From positions 1 through 8,614 of the forward strand of contig JAQICF010000166.1 of the NCBI GenBank assembly GCA_027858795.1: 8,614 nt of DNA. The letters are read 5' to 3'. The translations under genes were made by a program, and so were the position numbers. Under the pieces are notes generated by a model. That model saw nothing but the letters and a program-made list of their open reading frames with translations. It was not told the origin of the DNA and ran no database searches. How positions within the stretch are numbered: the stretch's first letter is position 1; each line of letters opens with the position of its first letter. This DNA comes from Candidatus Delongbacteria bacterium. GTDB taxonomy: Bacteria > Delongbacteria > UBA4055. Of this stretch, positions 2,359-8,614 are shown piece by piece.

Positions 2359-3522
2359 ATGACAAAATATAATGAATATTTTTTACCTGTATATAATAGA
2401 AAGGAATTAAATATAATTAAAGCAGATGGTTCTTACCTATACACTGATGAAGGTAAATATCTTGATATGATCGCAGCTCTGGGAGTAAATGTTCTTGGAA
2501 GTGCAAATAAAAGGATCATTTCAGCTATAGAAAAACAGGCTAATAGATATATGCATATCTCAAATTTCTATGAATCTGATATTGTTGGTGAATATGCAAA
2601 ATATCTCTGTGAAAACACTTTTGCAGACAAAATATTCTTCTCGAATTCGGGGACAGAATCAATTGAAGCAGGATTGAAAATCATTAAGAAATATGGTAAG
2701 CAAAACAATAAAGATATAATTCTTTCATTTAGCAAAGGATATCATGGTAGAAGTCTCGGATCATTATCAGTAACATCGAAAACCAAAATTAAAGATACGC
2801 TTGAACCTTTGATTCCCGGCATTAAAAGTATAGAATTTAACAATATAAATGATATTATTGAAAATATAAATGAAAGATGTGCTGGAATTATTATTGAAAC
2901 AGTTCAAGGTCAAGGTGGGGTTAATATTGCTGATAAAGAATTCATTCTTAAAATAAGAGAATTAACTGAGAAATTTGGAGCTGTCCTGTTAATAGATGAA
3001 ATTCAATCAGGGATTGGAAGAACAGGGAAATTCTTTTCATTTGAGCATTATGGTATTGAACCTGATCTGGTAGCATCTGCCAAATCTTTAGGCGGAGGAT
3101 TGCCTCTTGGAGCATTACTTGTTAATAAGAAATATTCTCAAGTATTGGAAAAGGGAGACCATGGTTCAACTTTTGGCGGAAATCCTGTTTCCTGTGCTGC
3201 GGGTTTAGAGCTTGTAAAGCAAGTGAATGATGAAGTATTTCTTTCTGAAGTGAGAGAAAAAGCTGATAAAATCAATTATAGACTTAAAAAGATTAGAGAA
3301 TTAAATACTGATACAATCGGAGAGATCAAACAACTCGGAATGATGATCGGCATTGAATTGAAGCATGGAGCGGATAAAGTGACTTCTTTATTTGAAAAAG
3401 AAGGAGTTATAGTCAATGTTACAGGAGGGAATGTTTTAAGGCTTTTACCACCTTTAACGCTGTCTTATGATGAAATAGATATATTCTTTGAAAAATTTGA
3501 ATTGGTATTAAATGCGATGTAG
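2359..3522 (+). CDS. argD: Class III aminotransferase, acetylornithine transaminase-like
   Basis: A 387-residue PLP enzyme of the class III (OAT/ArgD) group, slightly short of the usual 390-400. The expected reaction is transfer between N-acetylornithine and 2-oxoglutarate in arginine synthesis, in the cytoplasm. Seen in the sequence: SGTE phosphate-binding motif (97-100), YHGR (128-131), D213 in LLIDEIQSGIGRTG (pyridine-nitrogen contact), the Schiff-base lysine K242 in AKSLGGGLPLG, HGSTFGGNP (268-276), and R361 in VLRLLPPL for carboxylate binding. The usual EPxQGEGG reads ETVQGQGG here (180-187), so the glutamate of QGE is glutamine. Specificity for acetylornithine rather than ornithine, succinylornithine or another omega-amine is therefore not certain. 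No other arg gene is in view. GGAGAG at 2350-2355 supports the start. The TAG stop lies within a long palindrome. Confidence 0.87.
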   Translation: MTKYNEYFLPVYNRKELNIIKADGSYLYTDEGKYLDMIAALGVNVLGSANKRIISAIEKQANRYMHISNFYESDIVGEYAKYLCENTFADKIFFSNSGTESIEAGLKIIKKYGKQNNKDIILSFSKGYHGRSLGSLSVTSKTKIKDTLEPLIPGIKSIEFNNINDIIENINERCAGIIIETVQGQGGVNIADKEFILKIRELTEKFGAVLLIDEIQSGIGRTGKFFSFEHYGIEPDLVASAKSLGGGLPLGALLVNKKYSQVLEKGDHGSTFGGNPVSCAAGLELVKQVNDEVFLSEVREKADKINYRLKKIRELNTDTIGEIKQLGMMIGIELKHGADKVTSLFEKEGVIVNVTGGNVLRLLPPLTLSYDEIDIFFEKFELVLNAM

Positions 3523-3547
3523 GGAACGGTTTGAAACCGTTCCCTAC
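3519..3547. repeat. 29-bp perfect palindrome overlapping the argD stop codon
   Basis: The arms GTAGGGAACGGTTT (3519-3532) and AAACCGTTCCCTAC (3534-3547) are perfectly complementary around a single G. The TAG stop of the aminotransferase gene (3520-3522) is part of the left arm. No T-tract follows on either strand, so it is not a classical intrinsic terminator. It may still form a transcript-end or mRNA-protecting hairpin between the two convergent transcripts. Its shape resembles dispersed palindromic elements of other genomes, but no second copy is present in this window. Confidence 0.85.
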
Positions 3548-4490: not shown

Positions 4491-5128
4491 TCAGCAAATC
4501 CTCTACCGATCAAAGGAACAAACGTACAATTCATTATCTCTTCCTTTGTGAAACCGTCTTCAGTTTTTAACACCAATGTAAGTACATGAAAAGCTTCTTT
4601 ACCTAACGGAATGATCATTCTTCCACCGGGTTTAAGTTGGTCAAGTAGTAGCTTAGGTATCTCAGGAGAACCTGCAGTAACGATTATACCATCGTAAGGC
4701 GCATTGTCTTTCCAACCAAGTGTTCCATCTGCTACAAAAGTTTCGATATTCTCTATCCTAAGCTTGGAAATATTCTGTTTTGCAAGTTCTGAAAGCTCAC
4801 GTATCTTCTCAATAGAAACTACAAATTTTGCCATAGTACTGAGGATAGCAGTCTGAAATCCTGAACCTGTACCGATCTCAAGAATAACTTCATCTTTTCC
4901 AGGATTAAGTAATTCTGTCATTAATGCGGTAATATAAGGCTGAGAAATGGTTTGACCATGTCCGATAGGTAAAGCATTATCATCGTAGCTTTGGTCAATA
5001 ATATCTTCACCAACAAAAAGATGACGGTCTATTTGTTTGAAAGCATCAAGTACTTTTGGATCACCGATCCCTCTGTTATATAATTGCTTTCTGATCATAT
5101 CATTTTTAGCAAATTCAAAATTAATCAT
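4487..5128 (-). CDS. pcm: Protein-L-isoaspartate O-methyltransferase
   Basis: A 213-residue SAM-dependent methyltransferase that repairs isoaspartyl residues in aged proteins, acting in the cytoplasm. The family signature GHGQTISQP is at 56-64. SAM motif I is VILEIGTGSG (81-90), an acidic residue ends the next strand in VVSIEK (103-108), YDGIIVTAG is at 145-153, LKPGGRMIIPLG at 165-176, and FVPLIGRG at 203-210. The length matches bacterial Pcm (about 205-215). The start is placed at the ATG at 5126-5128, where homology to the family begins (INFEFAKNDMIRKQL). A TTG nine bases upstream is only three bases from the Shine-Dalgarno. The first eight bases overlap the end of the biotin ligase gene, and its TGA overlaps the next start, so all three genes are coupled. 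Confidence 0.95.
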   Translation of the reverse strand: MINFEFAKNDMIRKQLYNRGIGDPKVLDAFKQIDRHLFVGEDIIDQSYDDNALPIGHGQTISQPYITALMTELLNPGKDEVILEIGTGSGFQTAILSTMAKFVVSIEKIRELSELAKQNISKLRIENIETFVADGTLGWKDNAPYDGIIVTAGSPEIPKLLLDQLKPGGRMIIPLGKEAFHVLTLVLKTEDGFTKEEIMNCTFVPLIGRGFAE

Positions 5129-5843
5129 TATATTCAAGATCTCCTGTTGAAATATTAATTATATCATTTTTATATGTTATTTTAAGGATTCCCAGGTTAT
5201 CAATCGATAAAACTGTACCTGAAATTTTCTTGTTTTCATGAGTAACAGTAACAAACTTACCTAAAATATCAGCTTCCTCAGCCCACAACCGGGTTATGTT
5301 TTTAGGTTCTTCAGCATTGTATTTGATAAATGCATTATTGATATGATCTATAAGTTCGAACTTAAATTTATCAACATCAAGTTTCAATCCTGTTTCTTTT
5401 TCAACAGTCGTCCATGGCATTTCAATTTTGCCGGCAGGAATAAAATCCAGAACATTGATACCAATTCCAACGATTATACAATTCTTTGCAAATTCAGATA
5501 ACACTCCACAGATCTTTTTGTTTCCTATCAAGATATCGTTTGGCCATTTTAGGACGATGTCTTCAACAGGAATATACTGCTTTAAAAGATCTTTTATACC
5601 CAGAGAGAATAAAAATGAGTACCTGAGAGCATCTTCGGGTTCTGATATATCCTTGATCAAAAAAGAGCTGAATATAGACTTATCTTTTTCACCAAACCAA
5701 GACCTGTCAAATCTTCCTCTACCATTTGTTTGTTCAGTAGAAAAAAGCACGGTACCATTATCAAGTTCTGCTAAATTAGTTTTAAGATAATTATTCGTAG
5801 AATCTAGAGTTTCAAGATTAACGATATTATTAAATTCTGTCAT
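5121..5843 (-). CDS. birA: Biotin--[acetyl-CoA-carboxylase] ligase, monofunctional
   Basis: A 240-residue biotin-protein ligase that activates biotin with ATP and attaches it to a lysine of carboxylase biotin domains. Motifs in order: DSTN (14-17), the biotinyl-AMP loop QTNGRGRFDRSW (38-49), the catalytic-lysine segment KWPNDILIGNKKICGVLSE (99-117), and GIGIN (126-130). A C-terminal SH3-like domain (about 193-236) contains ISTGDLEY. No N-terminal helix-turn-helix is present, and the protein starts directly with the catalytic domain. It is therefore a class I ligase and cannot act as the DNA-binding biotin repressor known from E. coli. AAGG six bases before the ATG supports the start. It follows the 60-aa gene after 14 bases, and pcm starts inside its last codons. 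No biotin or carboxylase genes are nearby. Confidence 0.95.
   Translation of the reverse strand: MTEFNNIVNLETLDSTNNYLKTNLAELDNGTVLFSTEQTNGRGRFDRSWFGEKDKSIFSSFLIKDISEPEDALRYSFLFSLGIKDLLKQYIPVEDIVLKWPNDILIGNKKICGVLSEFAKNCIIVGIGINVLDFIPAGKIEMPWTTVEKETGLKLDVDKFKFELIDHINNAFIKYNAEEPKNITRLWAEEADILGKFVTVTHENKKISGTVLSIDNLGILKITYKNDIINISTGDLEYND
5141..5145 (-). promoter_or_regulatory. Ribosome binding site of pcm inside the biotin ligase gene
   Basis: On the minus strand AGGAG occupies 5145-5141, 12 bases before the ATG at 5128 and only three before a TTG at 5137. The ATG spacing is long and the TTG spacing too short. Homology favours the ATG, but the choice is not certain. Confidence 0.55.
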
Positions 5844-5857
5844 ATATTACCTTGAAA

Positions 5858-6040
5858 TTATTTTTTGTTCAAAGGTTTATCGATTTCTTCATTTTCAGCA
5901 AAGAAAGTATTCTTTAAATTTTGCTCTTCAAAAAGTTTTAATAATTCCCTTACGTCTTTCTGTGAAACAACAGGAAGAATTGGTGTGTTCTTAATAAACT
6001 TAAGTGGAGATGTTTGTTTCTTTAGTTTGATTTTAGTCAT
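5858..6040 (-). CDS. Uncharacterised 60-residue basic protein within the operon
   Basis: I do not recognise this protein. It starts with a Lys-rich segment (residues 2-18) without a signal peptide or membrane segment. A Pro/Val stretch NTPILPVVS (18-26) follows, then a probable amphipathic helix KDVRELLKLFEEQNLK (28-43) and a charged tail that ends in NKK. The case for a real gene rests on context. Its ATG overlaps the stop of the ABC ATPase gene by eight bases, the same ATG-in-AAT-GAx-TAA geometry as the birA/pcm junction. It also fills exactly the space between the ATPase and birA, with only 14 bases before the birA start. It may be an adaptor of the ABC exporter or an unrelated passenger; nothing in the sequence decides this. 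An overlapping opposite-strand frame (5865-6053) is judged a shadow. Confidence 0.68.
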   Translation of the reverse strand: MTKIKLKKQTSPLKFIKNTPILPVVSQKDVRELLKLFEEQNLKNTFFAENEEIDKPLNKK

Positions 6041-6833
6041 TTATTTTCTCTAGTTCCTTTTGTTTAATTGTTCCTTTGTGTAAAACTGATTCATATTCTT
6101 GTACTAAATATATGAAGATTTCTTCCATATAATATTTTCCGGTGATCTCTCTTAGTTCGTTCAAAGTACCTGTAGTAAGTAATTTGCCGTTATTGATAAC
6201 ACCTATTCTATCACATACTTTTTCAACTTCGCCCATGTTATGTGAAGAGAATATTACTGTTTTTCCCTGATTCTTAAGATCTACAATATGTTCGTGTATT
6301 TTCTGAGCGACAATGACATCAAGTCCACTGCTTGGCTCATCCAAAATAAGTACTGGTGGATCATGCACTATCGTTCTTGCTATAGAAGTTATCTGCTTCA
6401 TACCTGTAGATAATTTTTCGGACAAAGTGTCAGCATATTTTGTAATATTAAAATGCTTTATAAGTTCTTCAACTCTTTCTTTAGTATTTTCTTCAGGGTA
6501 TCCGTTTAAATTTGCAAAGTAAGTTATAATTTCTCTAGGTGACAATCTTGGATATAACGCAGTAGTAGCTGATAGAAATCCCATTGATTTACGTACATTC
6601 TGAGCATCCTGATCAGTATCAAATCCATTGATTGAAATTGTACCTTCATTTGGTTTCATTAAAGTTGCCATCATTCTCAAAGTAGTAGTCTTACCTGCAC
6701 CATTAGGTCCAAGTAGACCAAATATTTCTCCTGCATAGGCTGTAAAGCTAAGATCATTTACCGCTTTAACGGTGCCTCTCTGCTCATCGTAGAATTCTTT
6801 TGTAAGGTTCTTTATTACTATTTTTTCTTCCAT
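6033..6833 (-). CDS. ABC exporter ATP-binding protein, NatA-like
   Basis: A 266-residue cytoplasmic ABC ATPase that powers the neighbouring ABC-2 type permease. Walker A is GPNGAGKTT (42-50) and Walker B is VLILDE (161-166) with D-loop SSGLD. The signature is LSTGMKQ (141-147) and the switch histidine is H198 in [14 protein letters not shown]. The Q-loop region reads [18 protein letters not shown] (84-101), without the usual glutamine. That form, and LSTGMKQ in place of LSGGQ, are typical of the NatA sodium-extrusion subgroup. The last 30 residues are a charged extension. Its ATG lies 16 bases inside the end of the permease gene. The substrate cannot be deduced, and NatA-like pumps also include drug and peptide exporters. 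Confidence 0.93.
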
Positions 6834-8041
6834 TTTGCGAACCTACCCTTAATTTGTTTTATCAAAGAAGTATTTGAATTACCCAGTATGATCTCTTCTT
6901 TCAGCATAAAAGGTAATAATAATTTGTATAGTAAGAACATCCAAACCATAGAAAATAAAACTGTCTCGCCAAAAAAGATCAACTGCACATCATTTACCAG
7001 TAATAATTTGATCATCATCGCTACATTCAGAACAGGAACCATAGATATTACTAAGCTGGGTTCAATTGCTGGTATAATTACAACATATGACATCATCATG
7101 AAAGCCATGAAGAATGGAGTGATAAGAATATTTCCTTCTTTTCTATTTTTAGCAAATCCCGCTGCAGCCACAAAGATCAATGACATCATATGTGACATTA
7201 TGGCTAACGAAAAGAATGTGATCAATATTATTTTAAAGTTAAATATCAAACTCCAGTCAAATTCAAGTGACTTACCTGCAAACTGCATCATTAGCGTGTT
7301 AATTATCTGAGTAATAACAAAAGTTAAGAATGAAAAATTCAATATGCCTGCAGTAAGTCCATAGATGTTCGTAGCAAGAAGTTTTGCCATTATTATTTTC
7401 TTTCGGGATAATGAAGTAGTCAAAGTTGTTTCAGTTGTTTTGTCTTCAGTGTGACCAGCTGTAAGTTCTACTGCTCCTGTGCCTATTCCAGCAATGATAG
7501 TTATGATCGACATTAACGGGATGATCATTGATAGAATTTTGGTCATTATTTCATATTCACCATCAATATTATGCTTAGTTACCCAGAAAGTATTGAAATA
7601 GTCTTTATTATATGCACTTGCATCTATTCTTCCACCTAATTGAAGATCATAGTAATCTGACAATTTAACTTCAAGTTTAGCGAAGAACTCTTTTTGTATT
7701 GAATTTGTGCTGTCTAAATGTAGTGTATAATATGGTAGAGAGTCCACTTCATCAACCATCAGATAGATTCCTTCTTTGTTGAAAACCTCATTTGATGTTT
7801 CTGTGATCTTGAAATTATGGATCGTTTCGATTGAATCTTTGATCGAGTAAAATTTCTCTGACCTAATATCTAATGATAAGTTTATTTCCTGATTATCAGT
7901 TAAACCTGATTTCACCATCAAAAACTGAGTTATCCCCCAATACAGCATAGGGTAAAGCAATACAGGAACTAATATAACCATCATAGTAGTGTATTTGTTC
8001 CTCAGCAGATCTTTTAGGTATATTTTTATTAAAGTTTTCAT
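6818..8041 (-). CDS. ABC-2 type permease, NatB-like
   Basis: A 407-residue membrane protein, first gene of the minus-strand operon and partner of the NatA-like ATPase. The topology is that of NatB/ABC-2 exporters. A first membrane helix (about 19-42) is followed by a large extracytoplasmic domain (about 43-165). Further helices lie at about 167-191, 219-247, 268-295, 303-325, 329-348 and 355-378, and the tail is strongly basic (398-407). The cytoplasmic loop after the second helix carries ELTAGHTEDKTTETTLTTSLSRKKIIMAKLLA-like sequence (192-223 region), the conserved coupling segment of this family. The start is set at 8041, where the family-like KTLIKIYLKDLLRNK begins. A further 28 in-frame residues reach 8125, but they are only low-complexity hydrophobic codons, lack a Shine-Dalgarno and would overlap the promoter. 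The site before 8041 (AGAAAAGA) is weak. Confidence 0.9.
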   Translation of the reverse strand: MKTLIKIYLKDLLRNKYTTMMVILVPVLLYPMLYWGITQFLMVKSGLTDNQEINLSLDIRSEKFYSIKDSIETIHNFKITETSNEVFNKEGIYLMVDEVDSLPYYTLHLDSTNSIQKEFFAKLEVKLSDYYDLQLGGRIDASAYNKDYFNTFWVTKHNIDGEYEIMTKILSMIIPLMSIITIIAGIGTGAVELTAGHTEDKTTETTLTTSLSRKKIIMAKLLATNIYGLTAGILNFSFLTFVITQIINTLMMQFAGKSLEFDWSLIFNFKIILITFFSLAIMSHMMSLIFVAAAGFAKNRKEGNILITPFFMAFMMMSYVVIIPAIEPSLVISMVPVLNVAMMIKLLLVNDVQLIFFGETVLFSMVWMFLLYKLLLPFMLKEEIILGNSNTSLIKQIKGRFAKWKKK

Positions 8042-8090
8042 AATCTTTTCTGTAAATATTAATAACTTATAAATATAAATAATCAAGTAT

Positions 8091-8118
8091 ATAATAACAA
8101 CAACAAAAAATATGACAA
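8091..8118 (-). promoter_or_regulatory. Putative promoter of the ABC exporter operon
   Basis: On the minus strand TTGTCA (8113-8118) is followed after 16 bases by TATTAT (8091-8096); each matches five of six consensus bases. Transcription would begin near 8084 and give a leader of about 43 bases before the permease ATG at 8041. The -35 overlaps the -35 of the divergent plus-strand promoter. Confidence 0.5.
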
Positions 8119-8140
8119 TCATCATTGTAATGATTACAAT
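8112..8140 (+). promoter_or_regulatory. Putative promoter of the 33-aa gene
   Basis: ATGACA (8112-8117), a 17-base spacer, and TACAAT (8135-8140), each with five of six consensus bases at ideal spacing. Transcription would start near 8147, leaving a leader of about 44 bases. The 17-bp palindrome covers the -10 and much of the spacer, a classic repressor position. Confidence 0.55.
8124..8140. promoter_or_regulatory. 17-bp palindrome resembling a Fur/PerR/Zur box
   Basis: ATTGTAAT-G-ATTACAAT is a perfect inverted repeat. Its central 15 bases, TTGTAATgATTACAA, have the 7-1-7 form of Fur-family boxes. They differ by one base per half from the PerR consensus TTATAATnATTATAA and by one from the Bacillus Zur consensus TCGTAATnATTACGA. 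It overlaps the plus-strand -10 and abuts the minus-strand -35. The regulator itself is not in the window. Confidence 0.6.
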
Positions 8141-8178
8141 TTAGACGTAGATTTCAATTAGAAACAAAACAGAAACCT

Positions 8179-8185
8179 AGGAGGT
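8179..8185 (+). promoter_or_regulatory. Perfect ribosome binding site of the 33-aa gene
   Basis: AGGAGGT at 8179-8185, five bases before the ATG at 8191. It is one of the strongest Shine-Dalgarno sequences in the window and the main evidence that this short frame is translated. Confidence 0.85.
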
Positions 8186-8190
8186 TCAAA

Positions 8191-8292
8191 ATGAAGACTT
8201 CATTCAATAAATACAGCAACTATACATCACATAACTTTATGGAACACTTTAAAAGCACTAACAAAAAGAAATCTGTAAAAATGAAGAAGTAA
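8191..8292 (+). CDS. Short 33-residue basic protein, unknown
   Basis: A 33-codon open frame that I do not recognise. The peptide begins MKTSFNKYSNYTSHNFM and ends in a Lys-rich tail (KKKSVKMKK). It has ten lysines but no arginine or cysteine, two histidines, and many Ser, Thr and Asn. It has no membrane segment or signal peptide. Evidence for a gene: AGGAGGT at ideal distance, a near-consensus promoter upstream, a Fur-family-like palindrome over that promoter, and a strong hairpin terminator after it. The transcript would be only about 230 bases. It could be a small nucleic-acid-binding or regulatory protein, or the coding part of a dual-function small RNA. It is not obviously a leader peptide, since no attenuator-like alternative pairing was found. 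Confidence 0.7.
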   Translation: MKTSFNKYSNYTSHNFMEHFKSTNKKKSVKMKK

Positions 8293-8298
8293 GTTGCG

Positions 8299-8333
8299 AT
8301 AACTCAAACATTGAAATCAATAGTTTAAGTTAT
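8299..8333 (+). other. Imperfect hairpin in the 3' region of the 33-aa transcript
   Basis: ATAACT (8299-8304) pairs with AGTTAT (8328-8333), AAAC with GTTT, and ATTG with CAAT around an AAAT loop. One C-A mismatch and one bulged A interrupt it, for 14 pairs in total. It begins six bases after the stop codon and precedes the terminator hairpin. Confidence 0.5.
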
Positions 8334-8346
8334 AGAGGTAGAAGAA

Positions 8347-8377
8347 AGAGAAGGTCACCAATTGGTGACCTTCTTTA
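8347..8377 (+). terminator. Terminator hairpin after the 33-aa gene
   Basis: A 13-pair stem (8347-8359 with 8364-8376), including AAGGTCACC and GGTGACCTT, with an AATT loop. The centre 8350-8373 is a perfect 24-bp palindrome. The T-tail is short and interrupted (TTCTTTA), so termination efficiency is uncertain. Confidence 0.75.
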
Positions 8378-8378
8378 G

Positions 8379-8406
8379 TTATGAGATATGAGTGATAAGT
8401 TATGAG
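8379..8406. repeat. Degenerate 7-bp tandem repeat, four units
   Basis: TTATGAG, ATATGAG, TGATAAG and TTATGAG follow one another without gaps at 8379-8406, and the first and last units are identical. It lies in non-coding DNA directly after the terminator. Confidence 0.65.
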
Positions 8407-8551
8407 TTGTTTTATCCAATCCACCTCTTTTCCACCATAAAACTCGTTAGCAACTTAATATTTACTTTGAATTTGAAGTGTAAGCTCGTATATTCTAAAT
8501 AATAACAAATTAATCAAATATATAATTTACAACCTTCAAGGAGGTAAAGAA
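8407..8551. other. Intergenic region upstream of the last gene
   Basis: About 145 bases without a convincing gene. It contains TATAAT at 8521-8526, which is a possible -10 for the gene at 8552, but no good -35 at the correct distance. Otherwise it is plain AT-rich sequence. Confidence 0.4.
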
Positions 8552-8614
8552 ATGTACAATAAATATTTTATGTTATTCTTAGCACTTATGGTATCAGGAA
8601 TGATTCTTATTTCC
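8552..8614 (+). CDS. Partial CDS: N-terminus of an exported or membrane protein
   Basis: The first 21 codons of a gene that runs off the right end. AAGGAGG (8538-8544) lies seven bases before the ATG. The start MYNKYF is followed by a hydrophobic stretch LFLALMVSGMILIS, which fits a signal peptide or first membrane helix. The product cannot be named from so few residues. Confidence 0.75.
   Translation, partial: MYNKYFMLFLALMVSGMILIS

Follow-up and report, generated by a model that had tools for sequence, protein, structure and literature searches.

In the 8,614-nucleotide stretch of DNA analyzed here (the window), a small locus on the plus strand is flanked by a divergent NatB-like ABC permease gene (6821-8041, minus strand) with its ATPase gene and, on the 3' side, by another frame that leaves the window. 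The permease matches the NCBIfam model NF041647 with an E value of 1e-56, which is below the curated cut-off, and no Pfam family was found for it. The small locus begins with the promoter-like pair ATGACA-17-TACAAT (8112-8140; -35 at 8112-8117, -10 at 8135-8140), which agrees with the consensus in 10 of 12 positions. The spacer and the -10 element are covered by a candidate operator, the perfect 8-1-8 palindrome ATTGTAATGATTACAAT (8124-8140, strandless), inside which lies the 7-1-7 core TTGTAATGATTACAA (8125-8139, likewise strandless). A promoter-like pair of the opposite direction, TTGTCA-16-TATTAT, is situated beside the box at positions 8118-8091 of the minus strand. Downstream, all on the plus strand, are a Shine-Dalgarno sequence AGGAGG (8179-8184), an ORF for a basic protein of 33 amino acids (8191-8292), a 14-pair hairpin 3' of the ORF (8299-8333), and a terminator-like perfect inverted repeat (8349-8374), which is perhaps bidirectional. 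The original prediction had listed the promoter, the palindrome, the Shine-Dalgarno sequence, the 33-codon basic ORF, the hairpin, and the inverted repeat, and all of these parts are present where it had placed them.

By count alone, the promoter match is not beyond chance (five promoter-like matches in the region 7900-8614, with 4.2 expected), and an 8-1-8 palindrome is not rare by itself in the window (three seen, 0.4 expected). The box TTGTAATNATTACAA did not occur in 200 shuffles of the window; stems of at least 12 pairs, of which the window holds five in overlapping counts, were absent from 40 shuffles. What makes the set of parts convincing is its conservation, described below. A tRNA search found none, and neither a plasmid search in near mode (5121-8614) nor a phage search in distant mode (8086-8377) gave a match. 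Elsewhere in the window, a perfect and terminator-like 13-1-13 inverted repeat (3520-3546) was observed directly after a class-III aminotransferase gene.

Distribution and conservation of the locus

A search with the permease retrieved three contigs, all titled as metagenome-assembled genomes (MAGs) of Candidatus Delongbacteria, with 90, 83, and 82% amino-acid identity; these identities place the window near Candidatus Delongbacteria. On each of the three related contigs, the small locus and this ABC permease gene are divergently oriented. Among 290 genomes related to G001, ORF matches were obtained in three (E 1.8e-19, 2.2e-19, and 7.1e-18), the next match having an E value of 0.008. Small-protein matches at E of at most 1 came from 71 of the 290 genomes, only three of them lying below 0.007, and no convincing small-ORF match was found in the other 287. 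Seven other Delongbacteria have a permease that is 41-48% identical; the small gene was not found in them, and the sequence before the permease differs, as judged by eye (in G006 it holds a co-directional 361-aa frame).

The comparison is based on four sequences, all from MAGs: the window and the related loci L001, L002, and L003. At fourfold sites of the permease gene, identity to the window is 54% for L001, 49% for L003, and 42% for L002. The operator, the ORF, and the bases after the stop codon are conserved far above this level: the operator is identical in 17 of 17 positions in L001 and L003 and in 16 of 17 in L002; the ORF is identical in 94, 98, and 72 of 105 alignment columns in L001, L003, and L002, respectively, three of these columns being one codon present only in L002; and the five bases following the stop are the same in all three relatives (5/5 in each). 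The near-consensus promoter and the perfect Shine-Dalgarno sequence of the original prediction held in part. The former has its 10/12 match in the window, but its count is unremarkable, its -35 element reads ATGATA in L001, and its -10 element reads TACAAA in L002, a change in the -10 that counts against control by PerR as proposed below; the latter keeps all six letters in the window, L001, and L003, but only three of six in L002.

The small ORF and its product

Codon changes in the ORF relative to the window are five synonymous and three nonsynonymous in L001, and five and one in L003; in L002, the most distant relative, six synonymous changes stand against 13 nonsynonymous ones, with an invariant core; this excess of nonsynonymous changes counts against the reading proposed below. 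On this codon-level evidence, a conserved ORF with mainly synonymous change relative to L001 and L003 shows selection at the protein level. The invariant residues include S9 N10 Y11, S13 H14, F16 M17 E18, F20 K21, and the KMKK end. The computed pI is 10.2 for the window protein and 10.2-10.4 across the sequences. The predicted model of the peptide consists of one helix (residues 5-32) with a modest helical moment, and its mean pLDDT of 67.4 is too weak for a fold search. Among four members of the small-protein set, Pfam gave no convincing family (best E 0.075, in one of the four), NCBIfam gave no family, and a query extended to 40 aa found no homologue in a protein collection.

Predicted RNA structure and transcript end

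The RNA 8147-8380 folds with a z score of -4.3, and none of 200 shuffles folded as well. In addition to the structures of the original prediction, a stem is predicted to close most of the coding region, pairing GCAACT in codons 9-11 (8216-8221, plus strand) with AGTTGC (8292-8297, plus strand), which consists of the final stop-codon base and the five bases that follow it; these five bases are noncoding yet invariant. This stem is predicted in all four sequences, with pairing probabilities of 0.83-1.0 and six invariant pairs. When the closed segment was compared with 500 synonymous recodings for each of the four sequences, 2, 1, 1, and 16 recodings folded as well; with the three stem codons fixed, these numbers became 35, 17, 7, and 206. 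Thus, the stem carries much of the folding effect, and L002, with 206 of 500, shows nothing beyond the stem. Covariation cannot support the stem, because the stem never varies; of the 49 pairs predicted, only 4 show a two-sided change, with a covariation term of -0.19. No Rfam family was found at the gathering score.

The 14-pair hairpin claimed originally forms in the window, L003, and L002 (z -2.4, -5.7, and -1.4, respectively) but is missing in L001. The claimed 13-pair terminator is a perfect repeat with 13 pairs if no loop is allowed for, but 11 pairs with a 4-nt loop, and its T-run on the plus strand is weak (TTTAGTT). Its stem persists in all four sequences; in L003 and L002 its letters differ. 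A terminator scan calls the repeat for the minus strand only, so the repeat may act as a terminator in both directions. The segment between the hairpin and the terminator (8336-8348 in the window) appears purine-rich by eye, and likewise in the relatives despite changed letters. The check on conservation in close relatives that accompanied the original prediction found the ORF and the operator conserved and the hairpins conserved in part, and so did not refute the prediction.

The box and a candidate PerR-like regulator

G001, G002, and G003, the three related genomes, each contain a single mismatch-free copy of the box TTGTAATNATTACAA, which in every case belongs to the small locus. A chance palindrome, plausible by number, was rejected: each of these genomes has a single exact core, always at the orthologous position, and the core is retained where neutral sites have diverged.

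A PerR-like regulator is present in the genomes of all three relatives, and we infer that the window's own organism possesses this PerR as well. The protein belongs to the Fur family, is 140-141 aa long, and has as its closest solved structure the peroxide operon regulator of Bacillus subtilis (2fe3, E 4e-23). In the alignment to 2fe3, the residues H, D, H, H, and D are present at the places aligned with the metal ligands of PerR. The box precedes the gene of this protein with 1, 2, and 1 mismatches at distances of 28, 26, and 28 bp in G001, G002, and G003, respectively, so that the 7-1-7 inverted repeat in the promoter of the small gene resembles the autoregulatory-type box of the perR-like gene.

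We compared the Fur-family genes, of which G001, G002, and G003 contain 4, 3, and 3 matches. The phylogenetic tree was built from 23 of 24 Fur-family matches, the fragment G003:C483 being excluded, and contains a PerR-like clade of nine members with support of 94/97, just under the level that the tool marks with a star, a point against the control proposed below. As L063 has no upstream sequence, eight genes of the clade and 14 others entered the upstream test. The box was found with 1-3 mismatches, 20-28 bp upstream, in 8 of 8 testable clade genes, and with at most three mismatches within 80 bp in none of the 14 other genes, a split expected once in 319,770 cases if labels are randomly dealt and kinship is ignored. 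Among these 14, a G005 gene carries a site with two mismatches centered at -74, beyond the reach of the 80-bp limit. The background for 80-mers at up to three mismatches is 4.3%, drawn from the examined loci, some of which were chosen for their sites. Control of a Fur-family type, possibly responsive to metal or peroxide, had been suggested at the outset, and the split between the clade and the other genes sharpens this suggestion to a PerR-type box.

Two further Fur-family proteins were considered as regulators and rejected: Zur, since zur-znuABC (loci L097 and L098) carries the differing box TGCAAATNATTTGCG, and a second PerR-like protein, since its gene (L054, L064), which adjoins a rubrerythrin-like gene, has the differing box TTAGAATNATTCTAA. 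Each of these paralogues, zur and the second PerR-like gene, is preceded by a palindrome of its own.

The neighbors of the PerR-like gene in G001 and G002 are of an oxygen-defense kind: genes for rubredoxin and an ODP (flavodiiron-type) protein follow it, and ferritin, desulfoferrodoxin, and rubrerythrin are encoded on the same contig. In G003, the perR-like gene is followed by a flavin-reductase-like gene instead, and a different contig carries the rubrerythrin set, an arrangement that counts against the control proposed below.

Search for a wider regulon

Sites with at most two mismatches are not enriched in the related genomes (67, 64, and 70 in G001, G002, and G003 versus 63, 61, and 68 for the reversed pattern), which points to either a small regulon or a loose motif; the absence of a broad regulon supporting the box in these genomes counts against the proposed control. 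We examined 50 of the 67 sites in G001 and 50 of the 64 in G002, and most lie inside long ORFs. Among sites with 0-1 mismatch, two of six in G001 fall outside long ORFs, at the small gene (flagged within a 60-aa frame that is the upstream extension of the small ORF itself) and at the perR-like gene, and one of four in G002 does so, at the small gene. Five of the six such sites in G003 were examined. Three are intergenic, at the small gene, at the perR-like gene, and 40 bp upstream of a 274-aa frame; of the other two, one coincides with the start of a 305-aa frame and one falls within a 121-aa frame. The distant genome G005 (loci L101 and L114) has 18 sites with 0-1 mismatch versus 5 for the reversed pattern; eight of the 18 are intergenic, and two of these eight precede AhpC/TSA genes, one as the exact box and the other with a single mismatch. 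No such excess was seen in the other nine genomes of this site count.

In both G001 (L154, 788-802) and G002 (L175, 834-848), a box with two mismatches was observed 22 bp upstream of lipoprotein-type genes that look alike. Given this likeness by eye, the lipoprotein-type gene is a possible third target in these genomes; Pfam gave no family for the protein of L154.

Proposed mechanism and alternative explanations

We hold, with moderate confidence, that the small gene is a single-gene unit that encodes a basic protein of 33-34 aa and would be repressed by a PerR-type peroxide sensor of the Fur family. Judged by the box and its distribution, peroxide control through a PerR-type repressor explains the locus best, and exposure of the cell to oxygen or peroxide probably induces the gene. 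We infer the following course of events, from PerR binding and induction to the transcript ends and the action of the peptide. Without peroxide, metal-bound PerR would sit on the 7-1-7 box and block RNA polymerase at the overlapping -10 element. Peroxide or oxygen would inactivate PerR, allowing synthesis of a folded mRNA of about 230 nt, which would be translated and whose transcription the hairpin terminator would end; the fold over the ORF may set the stability or the translation of this mRNA. The predicted peptide, which we think is the main product, would act in the same response as the genes for rubredoxin, the flavodiiron-type protein, ferritin, desulfoferrodoxin, and rubrerythrin. It may act like other stress-regulated small basic proteins, as a helix with a lysine-rich tail whose binding target could be a nucleic acid, a partner protein, or the surface of a membrane.

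The original prediction had offered either a small protein or a dual-function small RNA, and either may apply, as the ORF shows selection at the protein level and the RNA over it is structured. That the locus works chiefly as an RNA gene, or as a dual-function RNA, with a PerR-controlled transcript of about 230 nt acting in trans and the ORF second or minor, seems unlikely to us. Such an RNA would fit the stem predicted in all four sequences, the better folding of the stem-closed segment than of its synonymous recodings, and the invariance of the bases after the stop, together with the finding that synonymous differences in the ORF are fewer than in the permease gene in the comparisons with L001 (p 0.025) and L003 (p 0.013). 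However, the four other synonymous comparisons gave p values of 0.08-0.51, more recodings fold equally well once the stem codons are fixed, the stem never varies and so gains no support from covariation, two-sided changes are few and the covariation term is negative, and no Rfam family matches at the gathering score. A dual-coding RNA, whose closed domain from codon 9 to past the stop would let the same bases serve both a peroxide-response peptide and a regulatory RNA, is a tentative idea that we also rate as unlikely; the PerR regulon of the lineage might then include little beyond the perR-like cluster and the small gene.

The two remaining explanations concern the box. It would mainly serve the divergent ABC transporter, the small gene being a passenger of a shared control region, if weight were given to the minus-strand promoter-like pair beside the box and to the permease and the small gene staying together in three relatives. 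We find this quite improbable, since the box overlaps the -10 element of the small gene and not that of the minus strand, and no box with 0-1 mismatch precedes the permease in the seven Delongbacteria with a 41-48% identical permease: G006, G011, and G012 lack any such box, and the single one in the other genomes lies inside a long ORF (G007, G008, and G010) or at the perR-like gene (G013). Control of the transporter by the same box is possible. AT-rich boxes of the 7-1-7 type are shared across the Fur family, and several Fur-family proteins are encoded in each related genome, so that another member (Zur, a second PerR-like, or a Fur-like protein) or an unrelated repressor might use the box. 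This appears very improbable in view of the differing boxes at zur-znuABC and at the second PerR-like gene and of the 0/14 result for the other Fur-family genes. Repression of the small gene by a PerR-type regulator is the reading that we prefer.

Significance and comparison with known systems

In uncultured phyla, dual-function RNAs and small proteins induced by stress are difficult to detect. The locus described here has a candidate regulator and an exact operator, and it yields the clear prediction, testable with metatranscriptomes, that oxygen or peroxide induces the gene. If the prediction is true, a short peptide would be added to the oxygen-defense programme of a candidate phylum, and a regulator would be seen gaining a lineage-specific small target. 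A search of one open-access library found no PerR-regulated small protein of such kind and nothing on PerR in Delongbacteria beyond a single paper that contains both words.

OxyS and SgrS/SgrT are short stress-induced transcripts; OxyS is activated by OxyR, and the SgrS RNA also encodes a small peptide. OxyS is not known for a peptide. The small locus would share with these systems a short, predicted stress-induced transcript and, with SgrS, a predicted peptide-encoding RNA. The FbpA, FbpB, and FbpC proteins of B. subtilis are very small basic proteins under a Fur-family repressor, FbpC having 29 aa, and are only postulated RNA chaperones according to a review (PMC8464778). By analogy with the proteins as described in that review, the small gene may be likened to them in encoding a very small basic protein under a predicted Fur-family repressor; the Fbp proteins belong to Fur and iron, whereas the control predicted here is of the PerR type. 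The rbr1-perR-rbo operon of Clostridium difficile is a PerR-controlled oxygen-defense operon of an anaerobe (PMC8546684). As that operon is described there, the two systems have in common a PerR-like gene clustered with genes of the rubredoxin, desulfoferrodoxin, and rubrerythrin types and a promoter box; in contrast to the C. difficile operon, the putative PerR box considered here also precedes an orphan gene of 33 aa that lies outside the cluster.
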